Source: Ptychodera flava
Taxonomy: Eukaryota > Hemichordata > Enteropneusta > Ptychoderidae
Direction: 5' to 3'
DNA: 64,000 nucleotides
NCBI RefSeq assembly: GCF_041260155.1
Contig: NC_091928.1
Location: 39,249,388 to 39,313,387 of the forward strand
In this document: positions 2,747-54,440 of the stretch, one piece after another
How positions within the stretch are numbered: the stretch's first letter is position 1
How the letters are laid out: every line of letters begins with the position of its first letter
Position numbers and translations under genes: made by a program
Notes under the pieces: generated by a model
What the model was told of the DNA's origin: nothing
The model's input: the letters and a program-made list of their open reading frames with translations, nothing else
Database searches by the model: none

Positions 2747-4330
2747 TTACAAGACGTTTAAAACAGTCAACGATCTGGCGTTGCGAATCACAGGCGGCAG
2801 CGAATTCCACAGAGCAGGTGCACAAACAGAGAATGCTCTCTGCCCATATGCCTTATTAAAGTTTCCATGAGGTGGCACCAACCGCAAAGAGTCAGCTGAT
2901 CTGAGATCTCTCACTGGGGTGTAAATTTCAAGCAAATCAATTAAATAAAGTGGTGTGACGCGATGAATGGTTTTATAGGTAGTTAACAAAATTTTGAATT
3001 TGATGCGAGCGCCAAAAGGCAGCCAGTGCAGATCAATAAGAACAGGTGTGATGTGATCGAATTTCCGAGTCTTTGAGACGAGACGAGCCGCAGCATTTTG
3101 AAGTGATTGTAGGCGATCCAGCTGAGTCTTATTAACACCATACAGGAGACTATTACAATAATCAAGCTGAGACGTAATGAATGCATGACCATCTTTTCCG
3201 TTGTATATTTGTCAAATAATGGGCGGATCTTGCCAATTATGGAGAGTGCGTAGAAACATTTCTTGCAGACATGGCTAAAATGATCAGAAGCAGAACCGTC
3301 GTTGTTGAGCTTCACAACAAGATTGCGAACTGAAGTGGATGGGGCAATATCAAACTCGCCTATCCTAAGGCTGTAAATTTTCACCGCATCTGATCTCAGG
3401 CGAGACGAAAACTGAATCACCTCTGTCTTATTGTCATCGAGAATCAACATATTGGATCTCATCCACCTGCGAATTTCATCTACGCATATCTCAAGAGAAA
3501 CTTGTACTTCATCAGGTCTCTTGCACACAACATAAATCTGTGAGTCATCCGCATACAACTTATAGTTGAAGTCATGCTTGACAATGATTTCTTCAAGTGG
3601 CGCTGTATACAGTGTAAAGAGAATTGGTCCCAAAACAGAACCTTGGGGGACGCCACATATCATTTGTACTGGGTGATGTAAATGAGTCTATCTTTACACG
3701 CTGATTACGATTGTTGAGATAGGATCTGAACCATGATAGAGCTTTACCAGTGATGCCAAAACGGAATTGAAGTCTGTGAAGGAGTACATCATGGTCAACC
3801 GTGTCGAAGGCAGCAGACAAGTCCAACATGATATGGAGAACATCTTTCTTTTCATTGAGAGCGAGCATGATGTCATTATGCACACGCAGAAGGGCAGTCT
3901 CTGTGCTGTGGTGAGCGCAATACGCACTTTGGAACTTGGTTAACAGTGAATGGTTAGCTAGGTGAATGTTCAATTGTGAAGCAACAACCTGTTCAAGTAA
4001 TTTCGATTGAAATGGCAGATTTGACACAGGTCGGTAGTTCTTCAGAATGTTTGGATCAAGGTCCGGATCTTTCAGCAATGGTCGAATGATCGCAGATTTA
4101 AAATGATTAGGAACGACACCAGATGATAGTGATGCATTAAAAAGATGCGTAATGAACGGTGCAAGAACAGAGGCGAATTTCTTGATATAGTTTATCGGGA
4201 GGATATCCAGATCGCATGATTTTGGAGCTGCCCGCTCAATACGAGTACGAACCTGATGAACCTCACTGAAAGTTGGTAAATTATGAGATGGTAAGGTGTT
4301 GCCGGTGTCGGTACTGTAACTAATGAGGCT
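2747..4330 (-). pseudogene. Reverse transcriptase and C-terminal region of the L2/Crack-like LINE
   Basis: The RT runs from NYRPVSNLPF (about 4040) through [52 protein letters not shown] and the thumb-like region. It then continues into HWLPFGARI and RAFSVCAPALWNSLP near 2800. The catalytic YADD is intact. It is split over at least three reading frames: 3593-4078, 2983-3663, then 2747-2989. The flanking linker at 4320-4865 belongs to the same element. Confidence 0.8.
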
Positions 4331-4843
4331 TCACGAAGTTTGGCAACTTGGAGTTGAAATAGCTCAGGAATCTAGATGGTAGTTCCTGCAATGGAATCTC
4401 ACTGGGTTGAGCTTTAGGGTTGATAGCTTTCGTATCAGATAACTCAGAGACGATCTTAAACAACTTCTTGTCATCTGTCTCTTGGATGCGAGCGCGATGG
4501 TAGTCGGCCTTTAATTTGTCACAGCGGCGAAAATACTCAATTCGCTTTATCAGAAAAATCTGCCGATCAATCTCAAGCTTTGTCGAGCGATACTTTGATT
4601 CCAGCCGTCTCACTTTCTGTCACAACATCAGTAGCTCTTCGCAGTACCATGGAGCACGTACCTTTTCAGTCACCAATTTCTTCTTAATGGGCGCTACAGT
4701 GTCTAATATCTCCATAACGGTGTCAAAATGAAATGTAGAAATGGCTTCAGCGTCGAAATCTAGTGGGTAAGGGGACAACTTGGTAGAGATTTCATCTTGA
4801 AAGAGATCGATGTTAACAGATCGGAAATCGAGATGCAAAATAC

Positions 4844-5535
4844 TCACTTTTTTGGTGTAGGGCATCGAAGATTCAGATTAAACCGTATGAGACTATGATC
4901 GGAGTTCATAAAGTTCGATACATCCACCGAGTGAACAAGCCCATCTGTCGAACGTGTAATTCGGAGATCTAGAACATGGCCCTTGTTATGTGTCGGTGTG
5001 AGAATATGTTGATGTAACCCCATCGAGTGCAACAGGTTCATAAACTTGACTGTGTCGGGCGAGTTCAGTTCATCAAGGTGAATGTTAAAATCGCCAGCGA
5101 TGATAAGATGGCCGGGCGACGGTACAGCGGACTCAAGTAGAATGGAAAATTCAGCAAGAAACTCGTTGACGGTTGAATTATTCTTCTGCGATTTCGGTGG
5201 GAGGTAGATGGTAATAAAGCGTAAAGACTGGCTAGATGATTTAAACATGACGTGTAAACACTCAAAAGATTGGTATGAACCGGCTCGTTTCTCAGTAACA
5301 CGTAGATTAGAACGGGCAATTACAGCGATGCCACCGCCTCTACGTTTAGAGCGAGACTGGTGGTGAATAGAATATCCGCTACTGCCCGAGTTGAATTCAG
5401 CGATTGCAGGGTCAGCTTGATTCTTGAGCCATGTTTCGGTGAATGTCCAAATCATCGTTAATCAGGGTTGTTGCAATGGCACCAATTTTTCCAGTTACAG
5501 AGCGAGCATTCCAAAAGGCAGCATGAGTCGTAATT
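4844..5535 (-). pseudogene. AP endonuclease domain of the L2/Crack-like LINE
   Basis: This is the apurinic-endonuclease-like domain that nicks the target in LINE retrotransposition. The start AFWNARSVTGKIGAI is seen near 5530. After a frame change near 5455-5460 come TETWL, the glycine-rich RGGGIAV, the catalytic-type AGDFN.HLD block, and NSDHSLI with the expected SDH at the C-terminus. The residues needed for metal binding (E in TETW, D/N in GDFN, D/H in SDH) are present. Only the frame change near the start and the lost connection to RT show that it is a dead copy. Confidence 0.8.
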
Positions 5536-15547: not shown

Positions 15548-18177
15548 AAACGGAGGTAAAACTCATCAGTGAGGGAACTGAGCTTCAAACTCCACCAGTA
15601 ACAAATGAACATGTCAGTTTAGTTGTTAAAGGATTACTTTCACCCCAATTTAGTCAGATCCAAATCACAAAGTACATAGTTTTACAGCTGTTAGCACAAC
15701 AGTCTGTACAAAAGAAACGACTGGATGAAGCTATACAGGAAAATGCAAGTTTGGCAGATCACATCAGAAAATTAACTGAGACAAATGATACAACTGAAAA
15801 CGAATTAACCAAATATCATAGCATAAAGTCTAAGTATAAGGAATTTTCATGTAAAATCGAAAAGGATGAAAAGACTATCAGTGATCTAAAGGCAAAACTG
15901 TCAGAACAGAAACAATCTCAGATCGATCAACAGTCTGTATTAGAGCAACTACAAGATGAAACTAGACAGGAAAAAGCCAGTTTAGCAGATCGCATCACAG
16001 CATTAATTGACACAAAAGTCATAACTGAAAAGGAACTAACCAAATGTGCTAGCATAGAGTCTGAGTATAAGAAACTGTCATCTGACATGCAAGAGAAGGA
16101 AAATATCATCATTAATCTAGAGGCAAAACTTTCAGAAGAGAAACAATTTCAGTTGGAACAACAGTCTGTATTAAAGAAATTGCAAGATGAAATTAGACAG
16201 GAAAAGATTAATTTGGCAAATCATATCAGAAAATTAACTGAGACAAAAATCATAACTGAAAATGAATTATCCAAACGTGTAAACATAGAGTCTGAGTATA
16301 AGAAAATGTCATCTGAAATGGAAGGAAAAGAAAAGATCATTATTGATCTAGAGGCAAAACTGTCAGAACAGAAAACATCTCTGTCTGAACTTAAGCAACT
16401 GCAAGATGAAACTAGACAGGAAAAGGCCAGTTTGGCAGCTAACACCAGAAAATTAACAGAGACGAAAGACATATCTGAAAAGGAATTATCCAAACGTCTT
16501 AGCTTAGAGTCTACGTATGCGAAACTTCCATCTGAAATGGAAAAGAAGGAGAAAACAATCAGTGATCTAGAGGCAAAACTGTCAGAACAGAAAAAATCCC
16601 TGTCAGTACTGAAGCAACAACTGGCCGACGCTAGACGGAAAAAGGCAATTTTGCCAGACCTCATCAGAGAATTAACTGAGACAACAGACAAACATGAAAA
16701 GGAATCAACTAAACGTGTTAGCATAGAGGCCCAGTATGAAAATCTTTCATCTAAAATGGAAGAGACGGAAAAGATCACCAATGATTTAGAGGATAAACTG
16801 TCAGAGCAGAAACAATCTCTGTTTGTACTAAAGCAACTACTAGGTGAAGCTAGACAGGAAAAGGCAAGTTTGGCAGATTACATCAGAGAATTAACTGAGA
16901 CAAAAGTCACAGCTGGACAGGAATTAACCAAACGTATTAACTTGGAGTCTAAGAATGAGAAACTGTTATCTGAAAAGAAAGAGAAGGAAAAGATCATCAG
17001 GGATCTAGAGGCAAAACTATTAGAAGAGAAACAATCTCAGTCGGAACAACAGTCTGTATTAAAGCAGCTACAAGATAAAACCAGACAGGAAAAGGCAATT
17101 TGGCTGATCAAATCAGAAAATTAACTGAGACAAGAATCATATCTGAAAAAGAATTGATCAAGGAAAGTAACTATTTGGAAGAACAGATTAAAGAATCAAC
17201 ACAGAAGTTAGGCAGTATTGAGAAATCACTCATGAAGCAAATACACTCTATAAGACAAAAAGATTTATCTGAACTAGAAGATAATGGCAAGTTCATCAGT
17301 GCTCTAGAAGCAAAATTGTCAGGTCAAGAAGAGAAACAGTCTGAGTCAAAACTACAGTCTGTGCTAAAACAACAACTTAATGAAGCTAGAAAGGAAAAAG
17401 TTACTTTAAGAGAACGTTCTGTAGAATTAACCCGGAATATAGATAGTATTGAAGATGAATTAATCAGAAAATGTTCTACCATGAAGTCTGTACATGAGAA
17501 ATTTTCATCTGAACTAAAAGTGGCGAAAAAGATCATCAGTGCTGTACAGGCAAAACTGGCAGGAGTACAGCAGATACAGTCAGAGGTGAAGCTACAGTGT
17601 GTATTAAGGCAACAAATTAATGAAGCTAGACAGGAAAAGGCAACTTTAGAAGAAAGATCCAATGAATTAGCATGTTTGGCAGATACAATTGAAGGGGAAT
17701 TAATAAGACAATGTGCTGACATAGAGTCTGAGCTTAAGAAACTTTCATCTGAACTGGAAGCAAAGGAAAAGATCGTCAGTGATCTAGCAGCAAAACTGTC
17801 TGGGCTGGAAGAGATAAATATTGTGCAAAAGCAACAAGTCCATGAAGTAAGTGAGGAAGATTCTGAGATAGGTACTGAAAAATCAGTTCTAAAGAATCAA
17901 CTAGATACAGCTAGACATGAAACGACCACTTTGGAAGAAAAAATTGAAGAATTATCACAGAAATTAGGCAAATTAAATACAATATTAAAATCATTTATCA
18001 AGCGACTACGCTCTATGAGAGAGAAATTTTCATTCAAACTGGAAGAGACGGGAAAGATCATCAGTGATCTAGATGCAAAACTGTTAGGTCTAGAAGACAA
18101 TCAATCAGAGAGGAAAAATAAATTTGAAGGTATCAAGGTCGAACATCTATATTCCAAAGACAGAGACGAAGTAAAAG
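15548..18177 (+). CDS. Large exon of a repetitive coiled-coil protein (about 876 codons), one frame break
   Basis: I infer a structural or oligomerising coiled-coil protein; the exact gene is not recognised. A pyrimidine tract ending in ACATTGCAG precedes 15548. No in-frame ATG occurs in the first 180 codons, so this is an internal exon. It ends at AAAAG/GTAAGC (18177/18178); both borders are phase 1. The body is about ten diverged units of 73-80 residues. Each contains motifs such as RQEKASLAD, RKLTET, IESEYKKLSSEM and ISDLEAKLSEQ, all rich in Glu, Lys and Leu. Unit identity falls toward the C-terminus. Around 17097 one base is missing relative to the other units (AAGGCAATTTGG versus AAGGCAAGTTTGG), which shifts the frame. 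This is either a real lesion or an assembly error. An NHL exon lies downstream on the same strand with compatible phase. Confidence 0.75.
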
Positions 18178-21397: not shown

Positions 21398-21667
21398 CAT
21401 CACAAGATTTAAGTTATTATTCTCACATTTAGCAACCCCAAATATCCTTGCTCCTAGAAGGTTTTCAATTTTATGTCGGTAATTGTGTTTGTTCTTTTGT
21501 GTACTTAAAGTTACAAATATTGTTCAGGAACACTCAGAAACTGATGACATTTATCGTTTATATCTCAGCATTAAATGACCATAAAATATCACGGCTGATA
21601 TTTTATGGTAAGTGTCACCAGAATAATAACATGATAAAATTAGTGTGTTTCTATTTTTAAATTTCAG

Positions 21668-22473
21668 TACGTTGGTCAAGAAAAAAATTGAGAGGTCCCC
21701 TGCAAGGAAAGAAGTTCAAACATGTGAGAGGTCTGATCTTTCACAGGGATAAACTCTTGGTGTGTGATCTAGAAAACAGTATTGTGTATATACTGAATCA
21801 AGATTACACATGTGAAAAGATGTTGGGAAGTTTCAGTCATTCCTTTCCCAAGCCATTCCAGCCACGATCCATAGCCGTCTCTCAGGACAAACTGTACTTC
21901 ATCCTTGATGTTGGCAATTTGCAAATCATCGTTTGCGATCATCATGATAACATCATAAATAAAATTATGCTACCAACAGACTCAGATCCCCGTCGCATAG
22001 CTCTTGTGAACGGGTTTGTTTTGATTACAGATGTCAAATATCACCGCGTCCTGAAGTATAGCCAGGGTGGACAGTATATTGCAGAGGTTGGTGGGAAAGG
22101 TGTCGGCCAAACACAATTCAACAACCCGTTCTTTGTCGCTGTTAACAGCAGAGATGTCATCATGGTGTCTGACTGTGACAATCACTGCATCAAGTGTTTT
22201 GATACTGAGTTCAATTACCTGTACCAATTCAGTCAGTACAATAATGGCCAACTGTTTCGCCCACGCAGCATTGCTATTGATTGTGAAGATAATGTTTATG
22301 TTTGTGATGCTGGCAATAAAAGGATTGTACAATGCAGAAGTGATGGAACATGGATCCGTAATCATTTTGAGTGGGTTGTGGATAGACCCTGGTACATAGC
22401 AGTGGCCAATGATTGTGATAGAGTTGCTGCAAGTGGATATCAACCAAATGAAATTACTGTATTTAGTCAGTAG
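21668..22473 (+). CDS. NHL-repeat beta-propeller exon (C-terminal part of a multi-exon gene)
   Basis: An acceptor (TTTTTAAATTTCAG) precedes 21668. The open frame runs phase 1 to a TAG at 22471-22473, about 267 residues. It contains about six NHL-type blades, each with a hydrophobic strand and D-x-G/N-x-x-I-like turns: RGLIFHRDKLLVCDLENSIV, RSIAVSQDKLYFILDVGN, RRIALVNGFVLITDVKYHRV, FFVAVNSRDVIMVSDCDNHC, RSIAIDCEDNVYVCDAGNKR and WYIAVANDCDRVAASG. NHL propellers bind protein or RNA, most familiarly in TRIM2/3/71-type proteins, where a coiled coil precedes the propeller. The upstream coiled-coil exon is on the same strand and phase-compatible, so a coiled coil-NHL product is likely. No RING or B-box was seen in the window. 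The frame is intact. Confidence 0.8.
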
Positions 22474-26921: not shown

Positions 26922-28419
26922 ACTTTGTGAACACACCACCGCTAAGTTGAGGAAAGACAGGAGGGTTTATTGCAAAAAGGAGAACGTAAATGCCAACAAA
27001 GTATAGAATAAAGCACAAGATGAAACGGCAAATATAAAGCAGTAAAGGGCATAGAACTAGTGCCCTCGCAGATCTCAAACTAAGTACTATCAAAACTTAC
27101 AATACAAAACAGTCAAAATAGAAGTAGCAAACTAACCTATAATAAAATATAAGCAAAATATATGGGAGAGGGCCCCTTCAGTCAAGCAACCGAGCAACGG
27201 TCATTGGTGACCTTGGGGTCAAGGTCTGAATGACCTTGATGATGAATCCATCCTGAGAGGCCGCAATGTGGGAAAGGAGTGGAATTCCCGAGAAATGGGG
27301 GTCAGGATGGAATCCAAAGCCCAAACGAAGGAAGTATGACTGAAGTGACCCCCAAAAGGAGGGAAGAAATTGAGAATGATGTTAGTAAAGGGGTTCTCGC
27401 ACCCAGGGGAACACCGCGGTGGTGATACGGCCAGGGGGGAGGGGGTCATGGGGGACAGGTAAACTGTACGAGCCCAGGTGGAAACATGATGAAATGGAGA
27501 CGAGGTTCTCACACCCAAGGGATCACCGCGGTGGTGATACGGCTTGGGGAGGAGGGGGTCCCGGTAACTGTGCGAGCCCGGGTGGAAACATGGAATGAAG
27601 ACGAGGTTCTCACGCCCAAGGGATCACCGTGGTGATGATACGGCTTGGGGGAGGGGGTCCTGGGGGACAGGTAGACTGTACGAGCCCAGGTGGAAATGTG
27701 GATGGAACAAGACAAGGTTCTCGCACCCAAGGGATCACCGCGGTGGTGATACGGCTTGGGGGAGGGGGTCCCAGGGGACAGGTAAACTGTGCGAGCCCGG
27801 GTGGAAACATGGAACGAAGACAAGGTTCTCACGCCCAAGGGATCACCGTGGTGATGATACGGCTTGGGGGGAGGGGGTCCTGGGGGACAGGTAAACTGTG
27901 CGAGCCCAGGTGGAAACAACGTACATGTAGGAATGTTAGGTGACAGAACACAAACGTGAAACACGACGAGACATGTAACGTGTGAGTCATAATGCAATGG
28001 AATGAGACTGACTTGCAATGACGTATAGGCAGGTGTTAAAAAGTGTTTGAGTGTGCACCCGGTGAGTCCAGATGGCAAAACGCAGACATGGAACAGAGGG
28101 TCCTGGGGACAGGTAAACTGTACGAGTCCAGGGGGAAACATGATGAAACAAAGACGGGGTTCTTGCACCCAAGGGATCACCGCGGTGGTGATACGGCTTG
28201 GGGAGGGGGTCCCAGGGGACAGGGTAGACTGTACGAGCCCAGGTGGAAACGTGGATGGAACAAGACAGGGTTCTCGCACCCAAGGGATCACCGCGGTGGT
28301 GATACGGCTTGGGGGGAGGGGGTCCCAGGGGACAGGTAAACTGTGCGAGCCCGGGTGGAAACATGGAACGAAGACGAGGTTATCACAAAACACATCTGTG
28401 ATAAAACACAGATTCCACA
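26922..28419 (-). repeat. Tandem repeat unit 2 with minisatellite interior
   Basis: Same ends as unit 1 (block A, then block C), but the interior is about 1.06 kb of GC-rich minisatellite. The near-identity of block A in both units suggests recent duplication or, if these are LTRs, recent insertion or gene conversion. Diverged relatives in the opposite orientation lie at 12.0-12.9 and 13.4-13.8 kb. Confidence 0.75.
27391..28383. repeat. GC-rich minisatellite, about 110-bp unit, about seven copies
   Basis: Copies start near 27391, 27505, 27606, 27717, 27827, 28158 and 28271, with a partial one at 28378. A different segment interrupts at about 27917-28080. Each copy holds the near-palindrome ATCACCGCGGTGGTGAT, then a G-run (GGGGGAGGGGGTCC) and ACAGGTAAACTGT. 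Long open frames on both strands here come from the repeat's base composition. I do not regard them as genes. Confidence 0.9.
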
Positions 28420-28699: not shown

Positions 28700-28863
28700 A
28701 ATGTTGGGGGGTCGCTAGAGGGCGTTCGTGGAGTGAGCATCTCAGTCGCATCGGCTCCAGATAAAATTCGAGATTTTCGCACTAGTGAGAGAAACAACAA
28801 CTTTTTGGAGCACTACCAGTTGTTTAAAGTGTTTCTGAAGCCATTGAAAACACTCATTTCAAC

Positions 28864-29823
28864 ATGGGTGTCTCAACTGAGCAGTGGCGGACAAGAATTG
28901 GTGTCTTTGACCACCGACCATGTGCTATAGGTAACCGCCATGACGTCAAAATCAGTGGTAATGGTATGTGTGCCGCCTTGCGCTTTGTCCTGCTGAGCAT
29001 GCTACTGCGGTCGGGCGACATCGAGAGCAACCCTGGTCCCAATCCTGGCAGTCAACAACCAAGTGAAAAGCGGGCAACACGACAAACAACATTACTTGGG
29101 GCATATTCGACATCGGCGAAGGACAGTGGAAACTTTGAACTTTCCGATATCATGCGGGAATTACGCAACGTGAAAGCAGACCTTGGCAGTAAAATGGACA
29201 GAATGTCATCCGAACTGAATACAAAAATCGACAACTTAGTGCAAGATATTCAGAGTGTGCAACAAGAACTTGGAGAGGCACGTAGAGAAACTGCTCGTCT
29301 CGCTGAAGAAAATAAAGCCCTAAACGACCAAGTTTACGACTTGACAAATGAATTAGACGCCATGAGAGGTCAGATGAAGAGGGACAATCTAATCTTCAAA
29401 GGCATAGCTCAAGATGAAAACGAATCATGGGATCAGTCAGAAGCTAAGGTAAAATCATTTATTACCGATAAGCTTGGGATCGATGGAAGCGATATTGAGT
29501 TTGACAGGGTTCATCGTCTCACAAATGCCCGATCAAGACCACAGCCAATCATCGCTAAATTTTCCCGCCACCAGCAACGCAAACAGGTGTTTGAGGCGGC
29601 CAAGAATCTGAAGGGCACACAATACAGAATATCGGAGGATTTTACGCGAAGAGTACGTGACGTGAGGAGAAAGCTCGGACAGTATCTTGTATCGGCTAGA
29701 GCTGAAGGAAAGAGAGCGTTTCTGACATTTGACAAATTGAAGATCGACGGAAGAACATTCGTCTACGACAGTATACAAGATGATATTCGCCCATTATCGA
29801 GAACAGAGTCGACGAACAGCTAG
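28864..29823 (+). CDS. LINE ORF1 protein with N-terminal leader, 2A motif, coiled coil and RRM-like domain
   Basis: This is the RNA-binding chaperone of the LINE, 319 residues. Residues 35-50 (MCAALRFVLLSMLLRS) form a hydrophobic, signal-like leader, followed by GDIESNPGP (51-59), a canonical 2A motif. Residues about 95-172 are a coiled coil (RELRNVKADL, LARLAEENKAL type heptads). From RDNLIFKGI (about 175) to about 265 comes the RRM-like domain, then a basic C-terminal domain (RRVRDVRRKLGQ). This order matches L1/Tx1 ORF1p, where trimerising coiled coil, RRM and CTD bind RNA. By analogy with known 2A sequences, translation should skip between G58 and P59, releasing a short leader and a 261-residue ORF1p that starts with Pro. 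A start at Met35 instead of Met1 is also plausible. The frame is intact. Confidence 0.85.
   Translation: MGVSTEQWRTRIGVFDHRPCAIGNRHDVKISGNGMCAALRFVLLSMLLRSGDIESNPGPNPGSQQPSEKRATRQTTLLGAYSTSAKDSGNFELSDIMRELRNVKADLGSKMDRMSSELNTKIDNLVQDIQSVQQELGEARRETARLAEENKALNDQVYDLTNELDAMRGQMKRDNLIFKGIAQDENESWDQSEAKVKSFITDKLGIDGSDIEFDRVHRLTNARSRPQPIIAKFSRHQQRKQVFEAAKNLKGTQYRISEDFTRRVRDVRRKLGQYLVSARAEGKRAFLTFDKLKIDGRTFVYDSIQDDIRPLSRTESTNS
29014..29040 (+). other. 2A ribosome-skipping motif GDIESNPG/P
   Basis: It fits the D-(V/I)-E-x-N-P-G-P consensus exactly. The skip point would lie between 29037 and 29038. It is preceded by a leucine-rich stretch, as in 2A-bearing non-LTR retrotransposons of sea urchins and trypanosomes. 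Activity is inferred from the consensus only. Confidence 0.9.
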
Positions 29824-29919
29824 GAAGACGGCAAGGCCAAAGTAATGACACACACCGAAGAGAATCATCACCACATCCACATCCGACCTTTATACAGAAT
29901 TCCTCGTATAGAACTTCAA

Positions 29920-32900
29920 CCAAAATCAAGTCCAGTTCATTTGTTGGAATATTCACGGTCTCATCTCCAAAATGTGCGATTTAGATTTCATTCTTATTTG
30001 CAACAATTTGACGTAATCTTCTTGCTAGAAACCTGGATAAAACATGATTCACGTTGTATAATTGATGGGTTTAGTTCATTTAAGAAGGCTGGTTGCAAGA
30101 AATCAAAATATGGAAGACATCCAGGTGGTATTAATGTATTTTTTAAAGACGCTCTTTCCATGGTTGTAAAAGAAATGTCGAGTGTCTCTGACAATATTGT
30201 CTGGATATCACTTTATTGTAATCATGTCGAGAAGTCACCTTTAATTGTAATTGCAACTGTTTACATTCCTCCTGATGAATACGACAAAAGCAATAGTGAT
30301 AACACACTTGAAATTTTAGAGTTTGAGTTAGCTAACTATTCTAGCAAGTTTCCAAATTCACGTTTTTACATCTGTGGAGATTTCAATGCTCGTACAGCTG
30401 ACAAGACAGATTGTGTAAATGAGGATGTAACAAATTTTGTGCTTCCAATTGACTTTGTATCATCCCACTCCAATATTGATGTTCACAAACGGGTTTCAAG
30501 TGAAAAGACTGTAAATACATCTGGCCAGAAGTTTCTTGATTTTTGCAAAGCTACGGAATTAAGTATTGTCAATGGTAGGCTTTTCAGAGAAATAGGAAGC
30601 GGTGATTTTACGTACGTTAGCCACTCTGGATGTAGTGTCATAGACTACCTTATCACCAATGTACGTAATTTCTCAGATATTGACAAGTTTTACATTGACA
30701 AGAGAGTGGAGTCTGACCATCAACCCCTTGTATTTGATATCAATGTACCTCGAGAATGTCATTTCAAGGCATCAGTAAATACCATCGATGGTAACCTTAG
30801 CACTGGAATTTTAACTCCTTCTTATGATAGATTTTTCTGGGAGAGTAAGCAAGAATCTTTTTTACAGTATTGGAATTCAACTCGAATAAGGGACCAGATT
30901 TATGAATTCAATGCACTTGTTGATGATTCATCAATTGAACAAGCTGCTGAATGTCTTTTAAATATGATCAAGTCTGCTGCAAGTGAAATGAAGCGTACTT
31001 ACAATTGTAACCAAAGGTCAACAAATAATGATAGCGACTGTAAGAGAATGAAGCGTTCACTCAATTCAAAGGTGAATGGATTTAGATATAATAGATTAAC
31101 GAACAATCTAGAATTATTAAAAAAGTGTTAACAAGAGTACAGAGAGCTGATTAACAATAAAAAGAAAGATCGACAACGTGAAAATATCGAAAAGTTACAA
31201 ACAGCAGGCAGGAATGTGAACTCAAGGGAATGTTGGTCTCTTGTTAAAGGAAAATCAGCTCCAGTGTCCCAGAATATACAAAATGATGATTGGTTTGGGT
31301 ACTTCTCAACATTGTTAAATACTCCAGGTTTTGAAAACGAGGATTTTGTTCCATTTCACGAAGAAATTAGGGATTTTGTTGAAACTATTGAAAATGAGGA
31401 TAATTTTTTAAATATGGATGTAGATGACTTGAATTTGCCAATTGTAATTGATGAAGTAGACCATTGTATCAAGAAACTTAAGTGTGGTAAAGCCCCAGGT
31501 CTGGATGGTGTATCACCAGATGTTTTCAAGGCTTGTACACCTATTGCTAGACAAATGATGTGTAAACTTTTTAATGCTGTTTTAGACTCTGGTCACTTTC
31601 CGGCTGCTTGGGCGCAAGGTATTATAACTCCAATTTATAAAAAAGGTGACAATAATTGTGCTGGCAACTACAGGGGGGTAACTCTGCTTCCTATTATGGG
31701 AAAATTTTCTGTAGTATCCTTAATAACAGACTTCGCATATGGCTCGAGAAAATGTATCCAATTGTTGATGAGCAGGCTGGCTTTAGGAAAACATACTGTA
31801 CTTCAGACAACATATTTATTTTATCCACCATTATTTCAAAGTACTTGGCACACAAGAGAAGTAGACTATATATAGCATTCATTGACTTTGAAAAAGCATT
31901 TGACAGAATTGATCATTACTGTATGTTTTATAAGCTTATTCAGTGTGGGGTTTCTTGTAAAGTTTATAGAGTTATTCTGTCAATGTATAGCAATGTAAAA
32001 TCATGTGTCAGAACCCCGTCAGGTTTTACAGATTTCTTTGATTGCAGTTTTGGTGTACAACAGGGATCAGTATTGTCACCCCTTTTATTCACACTTTTTG
32101 TAAATGATATTGGAATTACTCTAGCTGATACGCACCAGTATTCTGGTGTCGAAATTGGTATTTTAAGAATTTTGTATTTGCTCTTTGCAGACGACCTTAC
32201 TATGATCAGCAGTTCAAAGATAGGATTGCAGCGCTTGTTTGATCAATTGTATCTTTATTGCTCAAAAGTGGAAACTTACTGTTAATACCAGTAAAACCAA
32301 AGTTATAGATTTTAGGAGGGGTGGTGGTCTTCGGAAGTATGAAAACTTGTCGTATAATAACCAGCCTGTTGCTGTAACTTCTTTTTATAGCTATCTTGGC
32401 ATTGTCCTATCCTGGACCGGTAGCTGGTTTCAAGCACAAAAAACTCTGAGTGAACAAGCTAACAGAGCCTTGTATGGTCTGATCAGTTGTCTTTTTAAAT
32501 TTGGTCCACTGCCTGTTACTATTGCCTTGAAAATATTTGACTGCAAAATACTCCCCATTTTACTTTATGGTGCTGAAATCTGGGGCTTCCACCATGCTCC
32601 AGATATTGAAAAAACTCACAATAAGATGCTGCGCTATGTACTTCAACTATACACAGCAATACATCCATTACTGCTATGAGAGGGGAGTTGGGTAGACCAA
32701 CAATGACAGTAAATATTTATTGTAAAATCATTAGATACTGGTTAAGAATTTTGAAAATGGATAGAAATAGAATTGTATACCGATGCTACGAATTTCAAAA
32801 AAGCAAGATTGATGTTAATAGGTATGACTTATGGGCCAGGGGAGTGAGAGGCTTGTTGCAGAGTTATGGTTTTGGTGAAGTCTGGGAACAACAAGGGGTT

Positions 32901-33389
32901 GGTAATGAAACATTGTTTTTACGGCTTTTTAAACAAAGGTGTAGTGATATCGATGCACAATGCTGGCTGAATGATATCAACAATAGTAACAAACTTTATC
33001 TTTATTCTACCTTCAAAAAAGAGCTGGTATTAGAGCCATACTTGACCTGTATAGATAACCCTGTTTTCAGACATGCTCTTTGTAGTTTTAGAACATCATC
33101 ACACACTCTGAGGATTGAGACAGGTCGTTGGAATAATATTCCAAGACAAGATAGACTATGTGAGTTGTGTAATTTGCAGGCAGTAGAAGATGAGTACCAT
33201 TTTCTACTCGTATGTCCGACGTATAATGACTTGAGAGCTAAATACATGTCTTCCTATTATTTTAACCCTCCTGTAATGTACAAATTTAAGATACTTCTTT
33301 CATCACAAAATACTGCCACATTGAGGAAACTGAGTAAATATATTTTTTTAGCAACAAAACGTAGGAAAGAACTTACCATCGATGCGTAA
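29920..33389 (+). pseudogene. LINE ORF2: endonuclease, reverse transcriptase and CCHC region, lightly broken
   Basis: The endonuclease starts near 29927 (WNIHGLISK) and changes frame near 30006. It continues with LETWIK, ICGDFNAR and ESDHQPLVFD. RT shows GKAPGLDGVSPD, NYRGVTLLPIMGK, IDFEKAFDRIDH, VQQGSVLSPLLF and FADDLTMI; the catalytic FADD is present. The C-terminal end has CELCNLQAVEDEYHFLLVCP, a Cys/His zinc-binding pattern. Breaks: a TAA at 31129-31131 and frame changes near 30006, 31701, 32264 and 32640. At the first three frame changes the shift falls in a run of A or T, which may be replication slippage or sequencing error. The protein would nick the target and copy the LINE RNA into it. 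Confidence 0.85.
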
Positions 33390-33470: not shown

Positions 33471-33592
33471 TTTGTGGATGCAATTATTGCATTGACTAGC
33501 GATCTGTAAGCAACATTACTGCTAGTATTTGTACATATTGGCCGGAGGCCACAAGTACTGAATAAACTGAAATTGAAAATTGAAATTGAAAA

Positions 33593-34624: not shown

Positions 34625-35488
34625 CAATCAGATTGTGAATAGTTTGTTTTTACAATTGTAAATTTTTGAATTTTTTCCAAGTGAGTCATGATGTGCTTAA
34701 TTTTTTCTTAGTAAACTGTAAGATTTATGATGTTTTTAAATTAAGTTTAATTAAGTCTATTAAGAGGACTATTTTACTCATTATATCCATGTAAATAAAT
34801 AAAGATTGTACACCAAAACTCTAACATACATAATATATAGCTACGTGGTTAGCTGATAGTATTGCACAGTAGTGTTGCACATCATCTTGCAGTCTGTTAT
34901 CACAACAAATAGGTTTCAGCTAGGGATTCATCTGGATATATAGTTACATTGCCATTGCAAGCAAAGGAGAGCAAAATTATAGTAAGTCAGAAGGGGAGAT
35001 TTGAATGTTAACACATTGTGAGTTTGTTAGTGGTGCAATTTGAAAAAATCTTTGTATCTGTTTTTGATTCTATCTCACCCCCTCCAGAGGTATTTGTGTG
35101 CGCAGCAATATTTTTGTGGGGGTTGTCATGAAATTTTATCATCTTAAAAGGGGGAATCATCAATTTTGGTGCAATGGGTAGGAGGTTTACTAATATTTTG
35201 ACTGATTCACAGGAAGAATTTACCGGCCCATCCCCAGCCATAATATCTGAACGCTCCCTATGTGTATTCAAAATCTGAAAGCAGCAAATTTATATCATAT
35301 TCATTACTGCTATATGACAGAACATGATCTTATCATGATTAGCCTCATCAAGTTCAACCAAACAACACGTCTACAATTTTAAAGCATTGTCTCGATATAA
35401 TAAAACAACTTAATCAAATGATATACAGAGAACAATTATTATTCACTGACTAAGGACCGTACTGCCAGCAGTACAGTGCAAACAGTAT
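34625..35488. other. Nothing recognised
   Basis: AT-rich spacer without ORFs of note. Confidence 0.4.
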
Positions 35489-36945
35489 ATTGACCTATCT
35501 CAACTTTATAGTTATTTAAATGAGAATGGCCTCATATGTCACAACCAATCAGGTTTTAGGCCATCACACTCTACCGAAACTTCCCTTTTAAATGTTGTCG
35601 ATTATATTCTCTCCAACATGGACAGTGGAATGCTGACAGGTGCTATTTATATTGACCTATCAAAAGCTTTCGACACTGTCAATCATGTGTTGTTGTGGAA
35701 AAGCTGTCAAAGTTTGGCGTGAACGGTCTTGAACTTGATTGGATGAAAAACTATCTAGCAGATCGCACACAACGCACGAATATTAGTGGATCTCTGTCAG
35801 AAGCACCACCTGTCCAAATTGGAGTGCCCCAAGGCTCGATTTTAGGGCCACTTTTCTTTTTGATGTATGTAAATGATCTGCCATCTGTAACTAAATTATG
35901 CAAAGTGGTTTATATGCTGATGACACCGCATTGTTTTATGCAGCAGATGACTTACAAAAAATACAAAACTCGTTACTCAGTGATTTTATATCAGTTAGTA
36001 AATGGATGGATACAAACAGATTAATCCTTAACGTTGACAAAACTAAGTCCATGATTTTTGGTACACCTCAACGTCTCAGAAATAGAAATTTAGTTTTGAA
36101 ATTTAATGATATCGAAATTGATGTTGTCAGTCAATTTAAATATCTTGGTGTTGTGTTAGACCAATACTTAAACTGGGAATCTCATGGTAATATGATTGCC
36201 GAATCTGTATCGAGACGTCTTGGAGCCATATGGCGTATACGCAAATTTCTCGACCAGAAAACCTGTGAGTTGATGGTGAAAGCGTTAGTTTTTCCATTGA
36301 TGACGTATTGTGGCGTTGTCTGGATGACGTGCAGTAAAGGAATGCAAACAAAGATTCAGAGGTTGCATAGCAGAGCAGCCAAATTAGTTCTTGGTAGGGG
36401 AAAGTTTTCTTCGTCATCACTGGCCTTATCTCATCTAAAATGGCATCCTATAAACCATCAGTGGAATATACAGTTAGCTGTGATGACTTGGAAATGTTTA
36501 ATAGATTTGCCCCTCCATATTTATCTACTGATTTTCAAGAGCTTATTTTGTTAAGCGCTTCCAGCGTTTTACAAGATCTACTGTTAGTAATAAATTAATT
36601 GTGCCCATGTCCCGCCTACAGAAGGGTAGAAACACATTTCTGAATAGAGGCACAAGACTATGGAATACTCTACCCTCATATATAAAATCTCAAAAGAACT
36701 TTGTAATTTTAAATCTTTAGTGAAGAAATATGTTTAATTTGTACGCTTTGTGTTTTTAAGTCTCGTCACTTTTGATGTACTTTTGTCAATTTTATTCATT
36801 CTACGTGTCATTTTTTTATTTGTTTGTTGTGTACCTTTTGCTTTTTATGCAGGACGTCATGGGAGATCATACAACACCTTGTGTAGGAAATGAATTGACT
36901 TATCCTGTTTAAATAAAGTAAAATAAATAAATAAATAAATAGAGT
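35489..36945 (+). mobile_element. 5'-truncated LINE (Jockey/CR1-type RT)
   Basis: Starts inside RT and runs to an (AAAT)n tail. Visible motifs: NQSGFRPSHSTETSLLNVVD, IDLSKAFDTVNH, GVPQGSILGPLFFLMYVNDL, YADDTALFYAADD and LNVDKTKSMIFGT, then the C-terminal RLHSRAAKLVLG and HWHPI-like stretch. The catalytic YADD is present, but the reading frame changes at about 35690, in 35900-36020, and again near 36545, so the copy is dead. No endonuclease is present (5' truncation is normal for LINEs). The exact clade is not settled. Confidence 0.85.
36917..36942. repeat. (AAAT)n tail of the LINE
   Basis: AAATAAAGTAAAATAAATAA type run at the 3' end of the LINE. Confidence 0.85.
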
Positions 36946-52884: not shown

Positions 52885-54440
52885 TTATCATTATTATTAT
52901 TATTAAAAACTTCTTTAAAGCGCACTACACAAACGTCTCAGCGCGCTGTACATGACTGAAGAAAAAAAATACATGACTAAAATGACAGAAAAGATAGTTT
53001 TTAAAATAAAAAGTCACAAATACCGCAAAGAAATTTGGAAAGGAAGTAAAAACAGCGTAAACTGAGTGAAAAGGCTAAAAATCACAGTTGATAAAACTCA
53101 GTAAAAAGGTAAGTCTTCAAAGCACGTTTAAAACATTCAACATTTTTTGCAGAGCGAATCTCTGATGGCAATGAATTCCAAAGGAAAGGAGCATGAACAG
53201 AAAAGGCCCTATGGCCATAGGACTTATTATACTTCCCTTTTGGCGGGACTAAACGTAGCTTTTCCATGGACCGGAGATTTCTTGCCGGAACATACAACTC
53301 AATTAAGTCGCTCAAGTACATGGGTGCAATACCATTAATAATTTTATAAGTAATTAACAGAACCTTGAATCTTATTCGAGCTTCGATTGGAAGCCAATGC
53401 AGGTCGATCAACACGGGTGTAATATGGTCAAATTTGCGTGATTGAGTGACGAGACGTGCAGCAGCATTTTGAACTGACTGAAATCGAGAAAGCTCTTCTA
53501 TTAATACGCCATACAAGAGACAATTGCAATAGTTCAATTGCAATGTAATTTAGGCATGATCACTGTCTCAATAGTAACTTTGTCAGGTAATTTACGGATC
53601 CTGCTTATACTGTATAAGGAATAATATCCGTTCCTGTTTATTTGATTGATTTGGTCCGACATAAAGCCATCACTGTTCAGCCTAAGACCAAGATTTCGCT
53701 CAGAGGCGAAGGGGGCGATGTCAAAGTCACTAATCCTGAGATTAGCAATCACCGACACGTCCGACTTAAATCTTGTTGTAAAGTGGATAACCTCTTTCTT
53801 GTCGTCATTTAATATCAACATGTTTGACTTCATCCAGATCCGAATGTTGCTAATGCAATGTTTGAGACAAGAGCGCACATCAGCCGGCGTGTTGCAAATG
53901 ACATAAACTTGACTGTCATCCGCGCACATCATGCATTCAAGGCCGTGTTCGCCGATAATGTCCTCTAAAGGTGCTATGTTATGTAGAGCGTAAAAAGAAG
54001 TGGTCCCAACACCAATCCCTGAGGAACACCATATTTCATATGAGAGCTGGAGGATGACGCAGTCCCAGCTGTTACAGATTGTGTCTGATTTTCAAGGTAA
54101 GAGCGGAACCAAGATAAAGCTGTTCCTGTAGTGCCAAAACGAGATTCAAGCCTTTGAAGTAGGATTTCGTGGGTCTATGGTGTCAAACGCAGCCGACAGA
54201 TCCAACATGATGAGAACAACGTCCATTTTCTTGTTTAGCGCACACATGATGTCGTTATGTACACGAAGCAGGGCTGTCTCCGTGCTGTGATAGGACGATA
54301 CGCACTCTGATGACGTGGGAAGAGACGAAACTTGGTGAGGTGATTGCGCAATTGCAGGGCTACAATTCTTTCCAGATTTTTTGATATGAAGGGAAGGTTA
54401 GACACAGGTCTATAATTTTTCAAATTTTTCACTTTGACCT
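52885..54440 (-). mobile_element. 5'-truncated L2/Crack-like LINE
   Basis: The minus strand runs from NYRPVSNLPF (near 54430) through a frame-broken RT to a C-terminus at 53082. The 3' UTR ends in ACGTTTGTGTAGTGCGCTTT and an (ATT)n tail at 52893-52906, a hallmark of this group. RT shows CADDSQVYVI (catalytic ADD kept). The end has HWLPIEARIRFK, VPPKGKYNKSYG and FLWNSLPSEIRSA. Same family as the 2.7-5.9 kb element but a separate copy; endonuclease is absent. Confidence 0.85.

Follow-up and report, generated by a model that had tools for sequence, protein, structure and literature searches.

The presence of 2A sequences in animal LINEs is already known, as are the skip signal itself and the type of element considered here. 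The Odon 2013 survey reportedly recorded 2A in Rex1, Crack, L2, L2A, CR1 and Ingi elements and linked it to elements with one ORF. Human L1 ORF1p is not known to carry a 2A. L1Tc of Trypanosoma cruzi is reported to be a LINE with an in-frame functional 2A (Heras et al. 2006). Outside retrotransposons, the sea urchin NLR protein SpNLR2A6 carries a 26-residue 2A-like leader at its N terminus; according to that study (PMC4981915), mutating R11 or L13 lowered skipping, and the L14G and L14D changes weakened it. PMC12846837 gives a leucine-rich stretch directly before (S/A/C)G-D as the hallmark of one viral StopGo class, found all four of the wild-type StopGo motifs tested (1, 3, 4 and the L-rich 6) to be active in vitro, and reports more than 95% activity with Asn at p12.

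We analyzed a 64,000-nucleotide stretch of Ptychodera flava DNA, referred to here as the window, in which the 2A core GDIESNPGP is encoded at 29014-29040 (+), in frame with a LINE ORF1. The first-pass annotation had called this sequence an exact match to the 2A consensus, and our results confirmed the claim. When all six frames were checked, the ORF1 site was the sole NPGP in the window, and D.E.NPGP appeared in none of 150 length-matched first-order Markov windows, in which NPGP occurred 48 times. The residues at 29017-29040, DIESNPGP, satisfy the core D(V/I)ExNPGP, and the six residues ahead of them, MLLRSG, put G at p11; D stands at p12 and S at p15. Visual comparison with the classes of PMC12846837 showed that MLLRSG-DIESNPGP fits the L-rich (LLLLSG-like) StopGo class, with (A/S/C)G before D at p12. 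These results indicate that the 2A in ORF1 is real. Ribosome skipping at this site is probable, with the predicted skip between Gly 29035-29037 and Pro 29038-29040 (+), and the 2A is probably functional in the element's family.

The locus resembles several of the systems described above. Like the LINEs of the Odon 2013 survey, it is an APE-RT element with a D(V/I)ExNPGP 2A near the N terminus of a LINE protein; unlike the one-ORF elements to which that survey reportedly linked 2A, it has two ORFs and an L1-type ORF1. It shares with L1Tc the in-frame 2A, which in L1Tc is functional. As in SpNLR2A6, a hydrophobic tract leads into D(V/I)ExNPGP, and the segment 28966-29040 (+), which encodes MCAALRFVLLSMLLRSGDIESNPGP, has R11, L13, L16 and L21 in common with the sea urchin leader (numbering as in PMC4981915). 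It differs in having Met at position 14 of the tract, which counts against skipping, and in that the window's leader is likelier 58 residues long, has its tract at residues 36-48 and stands on a retrotransposon protein.

Relatives bearing a 2A were sought by a degenerate 2A scan of contigs in assemblies labelled bacterial or archaeal and of viral contigs. The scan of genome contigs yielded 10 loci; from a reading of their frames by eye, we took L002-L007 to be real 2A contexts and L008-L011 to be chance matches. The single viral-set locus, L001, was also judged to be chance, and scanning the viral contigs with the ORF1, the RT piece, the RT alignment and the leader alignment gave no confirmed relative. 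That 4 of the 10 prokaryotic-labelled loci, in addition to L001, were judged fortuitous lends some weight to the idea that the window's 2A is itself a chance match within ordinary coding sequence. We consider this extremely unlikely in view of the empty random windows, the correct upstream class, the placement before a LINE ORF1 and the equivalent position of the 2A in L003.

In L003, GDVETNPGP stands at that equivalent place, before a coiled-coil/RRM-type ORF1, and is followed by an intact ORF2 of 1209 codons with APE and RT by Pfam. Its RT is 42% identical to that of the window, and the two elements match in ORF1 (E 3.7e-6), endonuclease (1.3e-27), RT (3.2e-42) and the C-terminal part (6.8e-25). 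In L004, L005 and L006 the 2A comes immediately before an endonuclease-like stretch, although for L004 Pfam gave RT only, and in L007 it precedes a PHD-like ORF1. L002 (contig VGXS01000063.1, labelled Planctomycetota) has two GDVEPNPGP sites in one 2462-codon ORF, which by eye is retroelement-polyprotein-like with an integrase-like part.

A search with the L003 ORF2 of the genomes behind six of these loci produced matches in four of the six. The assembly behind L004 (G002), by its title a Bathymodiolus brooksi gill symbiont, contained 22 LINE matches, and NPGP was found in the N-terminal part of at least 7 of the 21 for which DNA was examined (C184, C407, C73, C113, C243, C87 and C157), a lower bound because some were cut at the 5' end. 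Only one of these seven fits GAYNTNGARNNNAAYCCNGGNCC exactly. The G002 LINEs probably derive from the host mussel, whose DNA would have entered the assembly of its symbiont. More generally, the LINE loci in bacterial- or archaeal-labelled assemblies, L003, L004 and L016 among them, are presumably animal DNA. Further searches with the L003 ORF2 at strict E limits, which covered 12 genomes of the G002 genus, 83 of the G002 family, 84 of the G005 phylum, 95 of the G003 genus and the single genome of the G001 family, revealed one new locus only, L032 (1.4e-32), which lies outside the window's RT set.

The first-pass annotation had named related copies without NPGP as evidence against its proposal, and on this point the relatives divide. 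L016, a G002 element, combines an ORF1 of L1 type and a related ORF2 and shows no 2A, and L003 keeps GDVETNPGP. Within the window's RT set, ORF1 is readable in three elements; two of these, the window and L003, have the 2A, and its absence from L016 indicates that the group can do without skipping.

We also considered where translation of ORF1 begins. The frame opens at 28828 and runs to the TAG at 29821-29823, a stop-to-stop length of 331 codons, and ORF1, which comprises a leader, the 2A and an L1-type ORF1p, extends from the first in-frame Met to that TAG (28864..29823, +; 319 codons plus the stop). This first Met, at 28864, has the context AACATGG (A at -3, G at +4). The second in-frame Met, at 28966, has the context GGTATGT (G at -3), and three out-of-frame ATGs lie between the two. 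Translation from 28864 begins with the 15 residues MGVSTEQWRTRIGVF, which match the opening 15 residues of four mussel-type LINE ORFs (such as MGNSLEEYRAAIGIF), in whose leaders a 2A-like site follows about 70 residues past the matching start. Here and below, mussel-type, like CR1/L2-like and L1/Tx1-like, is a label of our own, based on features of the sequences or on the titles of records and not on a classifier. The codon context and the match of MGVSTEQWRTRIGVF to the starts of the four mussel-type LINEs make Met 28864, 34 codons upstream, the likelier start, and 28966, where the first-pass annotation had its feature begin, the less likely one.

The common signature is MG-x6-R-x2-I-G-x-F, also written MG-x6-[WYH]-R-x2-I-G-x-F, and begins at 28864 in the window, 209 in L004, 324 in L019, 323 in L020 and 382 in L023, in each case ahead of a 2A or 2A-like site. 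Scored against the four leaders, the window start reached 27.25, compared with 11.0 for the best of 3,865 other Met-started 15-mers drawn from 33 sources, the four training leaders being excluded. One of 200,000 shuffles attained the window score; the motif had been picked after the sequences were seen, for which the shuffles are uncorrected. The leader codons vary at synonymous positions between the window and the mussel-type LINEs, and therefore the protein is what is kept in the leader start. When the leader alignment was compared with 12 genomes, 10 gave a match with an E of 1 or below; past the 2A end, the only convincing match beyond the four training leaders was a fifth mussel-type copy, G007:C20 (8.9e-11), which has AYRAAIGLF and GNIESNPGP in different frames. 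The MG..R..IG.F start was not seen in L003.

The 2A itself varies among the mussel-type LINEs, being GNVELNPGP in L019, GNIESNPGP in L023, DNDIHQNPGP in L020, GDIHINPGP in L066, GDISTNPGP in L067 and SDTETNPGP in L068. N-myristoylation of the leader MG was considered as well and was dropped, the rule for this modification dismissing a leader with Glu at position 6.

The leader that skipping would release has 58 codons, from MGVSTEQWRTRIGVF to NPG (28864..29037, +). Within it, the hydrophobic tract CAALRFVLLSMLL occupies residues 36-48 (28969..29007, +), immediately ahead of RSG-DIESNPGP. In the reading drawn from the first-pass annotation, translation would start at 28966 and the leader would act as a signal sequence, ORF1p being divided between the cytosol when skipping occurs and the ER or secretion when it fails, as for the sea urchin NLR leader. 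Dual targeting has indeed been shown for an N-terminal 2A (Roulston et al. 2016, PMC4981915), Met 28966 has its G at -3, and the tract is hydrophobic, with an 11-residue Kyte-Doolittle mean of 2.22. The first-Met stretches of L003 and L006 are strongly hydrophobic too, with 19-residue means of 2.22 and 1.99, and the four mussel-type leaders have best 19-residue means of 1.91-2.36. We nevertheless regard the proposal as quite unlikely. Met 28864 comes earlier, has the stronger context and begins the common signature, and scanning ribosomes would need to bypass three further ATGs to reach Met 28966. The window's best 19-residue mean is borderline at just 1.58 from Met 28864 and 1.36 from Met 28966, and in L003 the 2A is immediately preceded by no more than the short MDPGSLLLLSGD, the mean next to the 2A being 1.07.

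Given the probable start at 28864, the tract is internal to a 58-residue leader and does not have the very N-terminal position of the hydrophobic sea urchin type of 2A leader. The evidence thus does not support an N-terminal signal sequence. The tract can be accounted for by skipping alone, because an L-rich stretch marks the StopGo class and because L-rich tracts precede 2A at plainly internal sites too, as in the 2462-codon ORF of L002. Judged by the hydropathy of L003, L006 and the four mussel-type leaders, membrane-seeking leaders appear to be common among these elements, and by analogy with the sea urchin leader, the window's leader or those of its relatives may be partly targeted to membranes.

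The predicted free ORF1p begins with an N-terminal Pro and has 261 residues (29038..29820, +). A three-row profile of the window, L003 and L016 found LINE-1 ORF1p 2ykp with an E of 2.4e-8 and, below some unrelated coiled coils, the mouse-type 2ldy (0.0015). In a structure model of the protein downstream of the 2A (average pLDDT 62, pTM 0.34), a long helix is followed by a beta-alpha-beta-beta-alpha domain and an uncertain tail. The helix is the predicted coiled-coil part (model residues 31-115; 29128..29382, +), and the domain is the predicted RRM part (model residues 117-189; 29386..29604, +), which matched the central domain 2w7a with E 5.5e-4, a TM by target of 0.60 and an rmsd of 4.4. After the RRM, a helix at 201-222 and short strands were modelled with pLDDT below 50. 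All 11 of the best structural matches were human LINE-1 ORF1p, 2yko having an E of 2.1e-5 with a low full-length TM (0.37/0.45). On single sequences the support for this type was weak: in phmmer, the protein matched LINE-1 ORF1p at E 0.011, ranked below the coiled-coil transcription factor 8ia3 (E 0.0044). Among the 25 of 37 Pfam matches listed, ORF1 of the window had only coiled-coil-like families, all below their cut-offs, and Pfam gave no family for the L003 ORF1.

By profile and model, then, the protein resembles human LINE-1 ORF1p in its coiled coil and RRM and appears to be an L1-type (type II) ORF1p; for the protein, the earlier description as an L1/Tx1-style ORF1 with these two parts holds. 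According to PMC4120745, type II ORF1s occur also in the CR1, L2 and R1 clades, and the type of ORF1 therefore does not place the element.

Taken together, we think it likely that ORF1, read from Met 28864, consists of a 58-residue leader ending in 2A and an L1-type ORF1p, and that working members of the family skip. In such a member the ribosome would synthesize the leader from Met 28864, the Gly58-Pro59 bond would not be formed, and the leader would be released as translation continues, so that the RNA-binding ORF1p would emerge free, with Pro as its first residue. The main role of the hydrophobic tract would be in the 2A arrest within the exit tunnel; the separation would rid ORF1p of a hydrophobic N-terminal extension. 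We infer from sequence the occurrence and efficiency of skipping, the start codon used and any role that the leader product may have of its own.

Downstream of ORF1, the element is in pieces. An ORF2 piece with an APE endonuclease lies at 29824..31131 (+; PF14529 2.4e-10, PF03372 1.8e-6) and ends in an in-frame stop at 31129-31131. The first APE motif, FICWNIHGL (named by eye), starts at 29936 in a different frame from this piece, and thus the frame breaks there in this copy. Reverse transcriptase pieces in two frames follow at 31132..32285 (+), with RVT_1 (PF00078) at 5.7e-21 on 31656-32282. The C-terminal pieces at 32224..33389 (+) contain H-x-L-x-I-E-x-G-R-W and further on a Cys/His-rich stretch, found in relatives too, and match L003 at 30% over 213 aa. 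A tail of short repeats, 2.2 copies of AAACTGAAATTGA at 33564..33592 (+), is the probable 3' end of the element. There was no clear target-site duplication around the element and no second copy of it within the window. Because APE and RT are spread over several frames, ORF2 is broken in this copy. The element is an APE-type non-LTR retrotransposon, and this copy retains an intact ORF1 and cannot make an intact ORF2p.

The decay of ORF2 at several places raises the question of whether the 2A is a relic, formerly used by the family and no longer of consequence in this lineage, in a copy that is a decaying insertion. That L016 manages without a 2A and that a single copy is visible in the window would agree with such a history. 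However, the 2A core has all its residues, ORF1 has an open frame throughout, and the 2A has been kept in L003 despite the distance between the two RTs, and on balance we find a relic unlikely.

We placed the RT in a 27-row tree, which omits two long rows (L024 and the second window LINE); a 29-row tree with both gave the same sets. The window grouped with L003, L013, L016, L017 and L018 at a support of 29/73, and a separate set of 11 (100/99) contained the 2A-bearing mussel-type elements. The tree fixes no position of the window set relative to L1, R2 and the larger LINE set. The AU test rejected a grouping of the window RT with the four leader-bearing mussel-type elements (p-AU 4.3e-5, or 5.7e-5 with L003 added), and hence the window RT is kept apart from four one-ORF LINEs that have the same leader start. 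The window with L003 alone was neither supported nor rejected (p 0.49). In the best tree the window joins L016 and L018, a pair that includes the 2A-less element, with almost no support (36/0). A constraint making all 2A bearers one clade was set aside, as it splits close pairs. A sister relationship of the window to all 11 members of the separate set could not be rejected (p 0.48), and we therefore claim no clade name.

The leader is thus common to RTs that do not group, which implies either exchange or an old presence with many losses. Since the AU test rejects the joint grouping, the leader and 2A may form a modular cassette exchangeable between LINEs. The occurrence of the signature on RTs that the AU test separates also suggests selection on the leader protein, beyond the skip site alone, and makes the leader a candidate small LINE-encoded peptide that can be tested.

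The junction between ORF1 and ORF2 shows a further common feature. In the window, the ORF1 stop TAG (29821..29823, +) is followed by G, and the frame continues open for 435 codons. TAG-G at the end of ORF1 with the same frame open downstream was found in all three elements compared, the others being L003 (minus-strand 1459-1461) and L016 (minus-strand 1171-1173). In L003, no in-frame Met occurs until 53 codons past the stop, and endonuclease motif I (by eye) is at codon 26; in L016, the corresponding positions are 142 codons and codon 96. Neither has an in-frame AUG able to start a full endonuclease. The lack of an AUG before motif I suggests UAG readthrough in L003 and L016 as the simplest reading, alongside non-AUG starts. 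In the window, a Met stands at the eighth codon past the TAG and motif I is in another frame, which leaves reinitiation as open as readthrough for this copy. PMC5972666 describes termination-reinitiation for SART1 and notes its proposal for LINE-1. Predicted RNA structure after the TAG was no better than that of shuffles in any of the three elements (z 0.35, -0.61 and 0.65), and there is thus no sign of a readthrough pseudoknot. In the literature searched, no LINE case of UAG readthrough into ORF2 appeared by title. If the TAG-G junction is held in more copies, it would provide a way to test how some LINEs express ORF2.

A joint reading of these features, which we put forward tentatively and consider less likely than not, is that an exchangeable leader and 2A cassette has moved between RT lineages and been placed before unlike first proteins, combined with UAG readthrough in the window's group. 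The cassette so conceived would be a conserved small membrane-leaning leader, made up of MG-x6-R-x2-I-G-x-F, a hydrophobic tract and the 2A; the first proteins behind it would be an L1-type ORF1 in the window and an endonuclease-like start in the mussel-type elements. If true, the leader, ORF1p and an ORF1-ORF2 fusion would arise from one initiation event, in a gag/gag-pol-like scheme without a LINE precedent in the literature searched. By title, no paper in the literature searched dealt with a 2A ahead of an L1-type ORF1. What may be new is that a 2A is combined with an ORF1 of L1 type in an element of two ORFs, together with the leader signature shared between LINEs and the TAG-G at the ORF1/ORF2 junction; earlier description of such cases in Odon 2013, Luke 2014 or Rao 2025 is possible.

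The window contains further LINE-like fragments at 2750-5461 (-) and 35450-36551 (+), where APE or RT families were matched, and at 53085-54091 (-), which was recognized by eye and gave no Pfam match at 1e-5 on the piece tested; NPGP was absent from all three. A 111-base tandem array of about 9 copies (27392-28381) ends about 480 bases upstream of Met 28864. A 219-base tandem repeat of 6.5 copies lies at 15697-17155 within a 532-codon open frame, and beyond it an NHL-repeat frame is found at 21661-22470.
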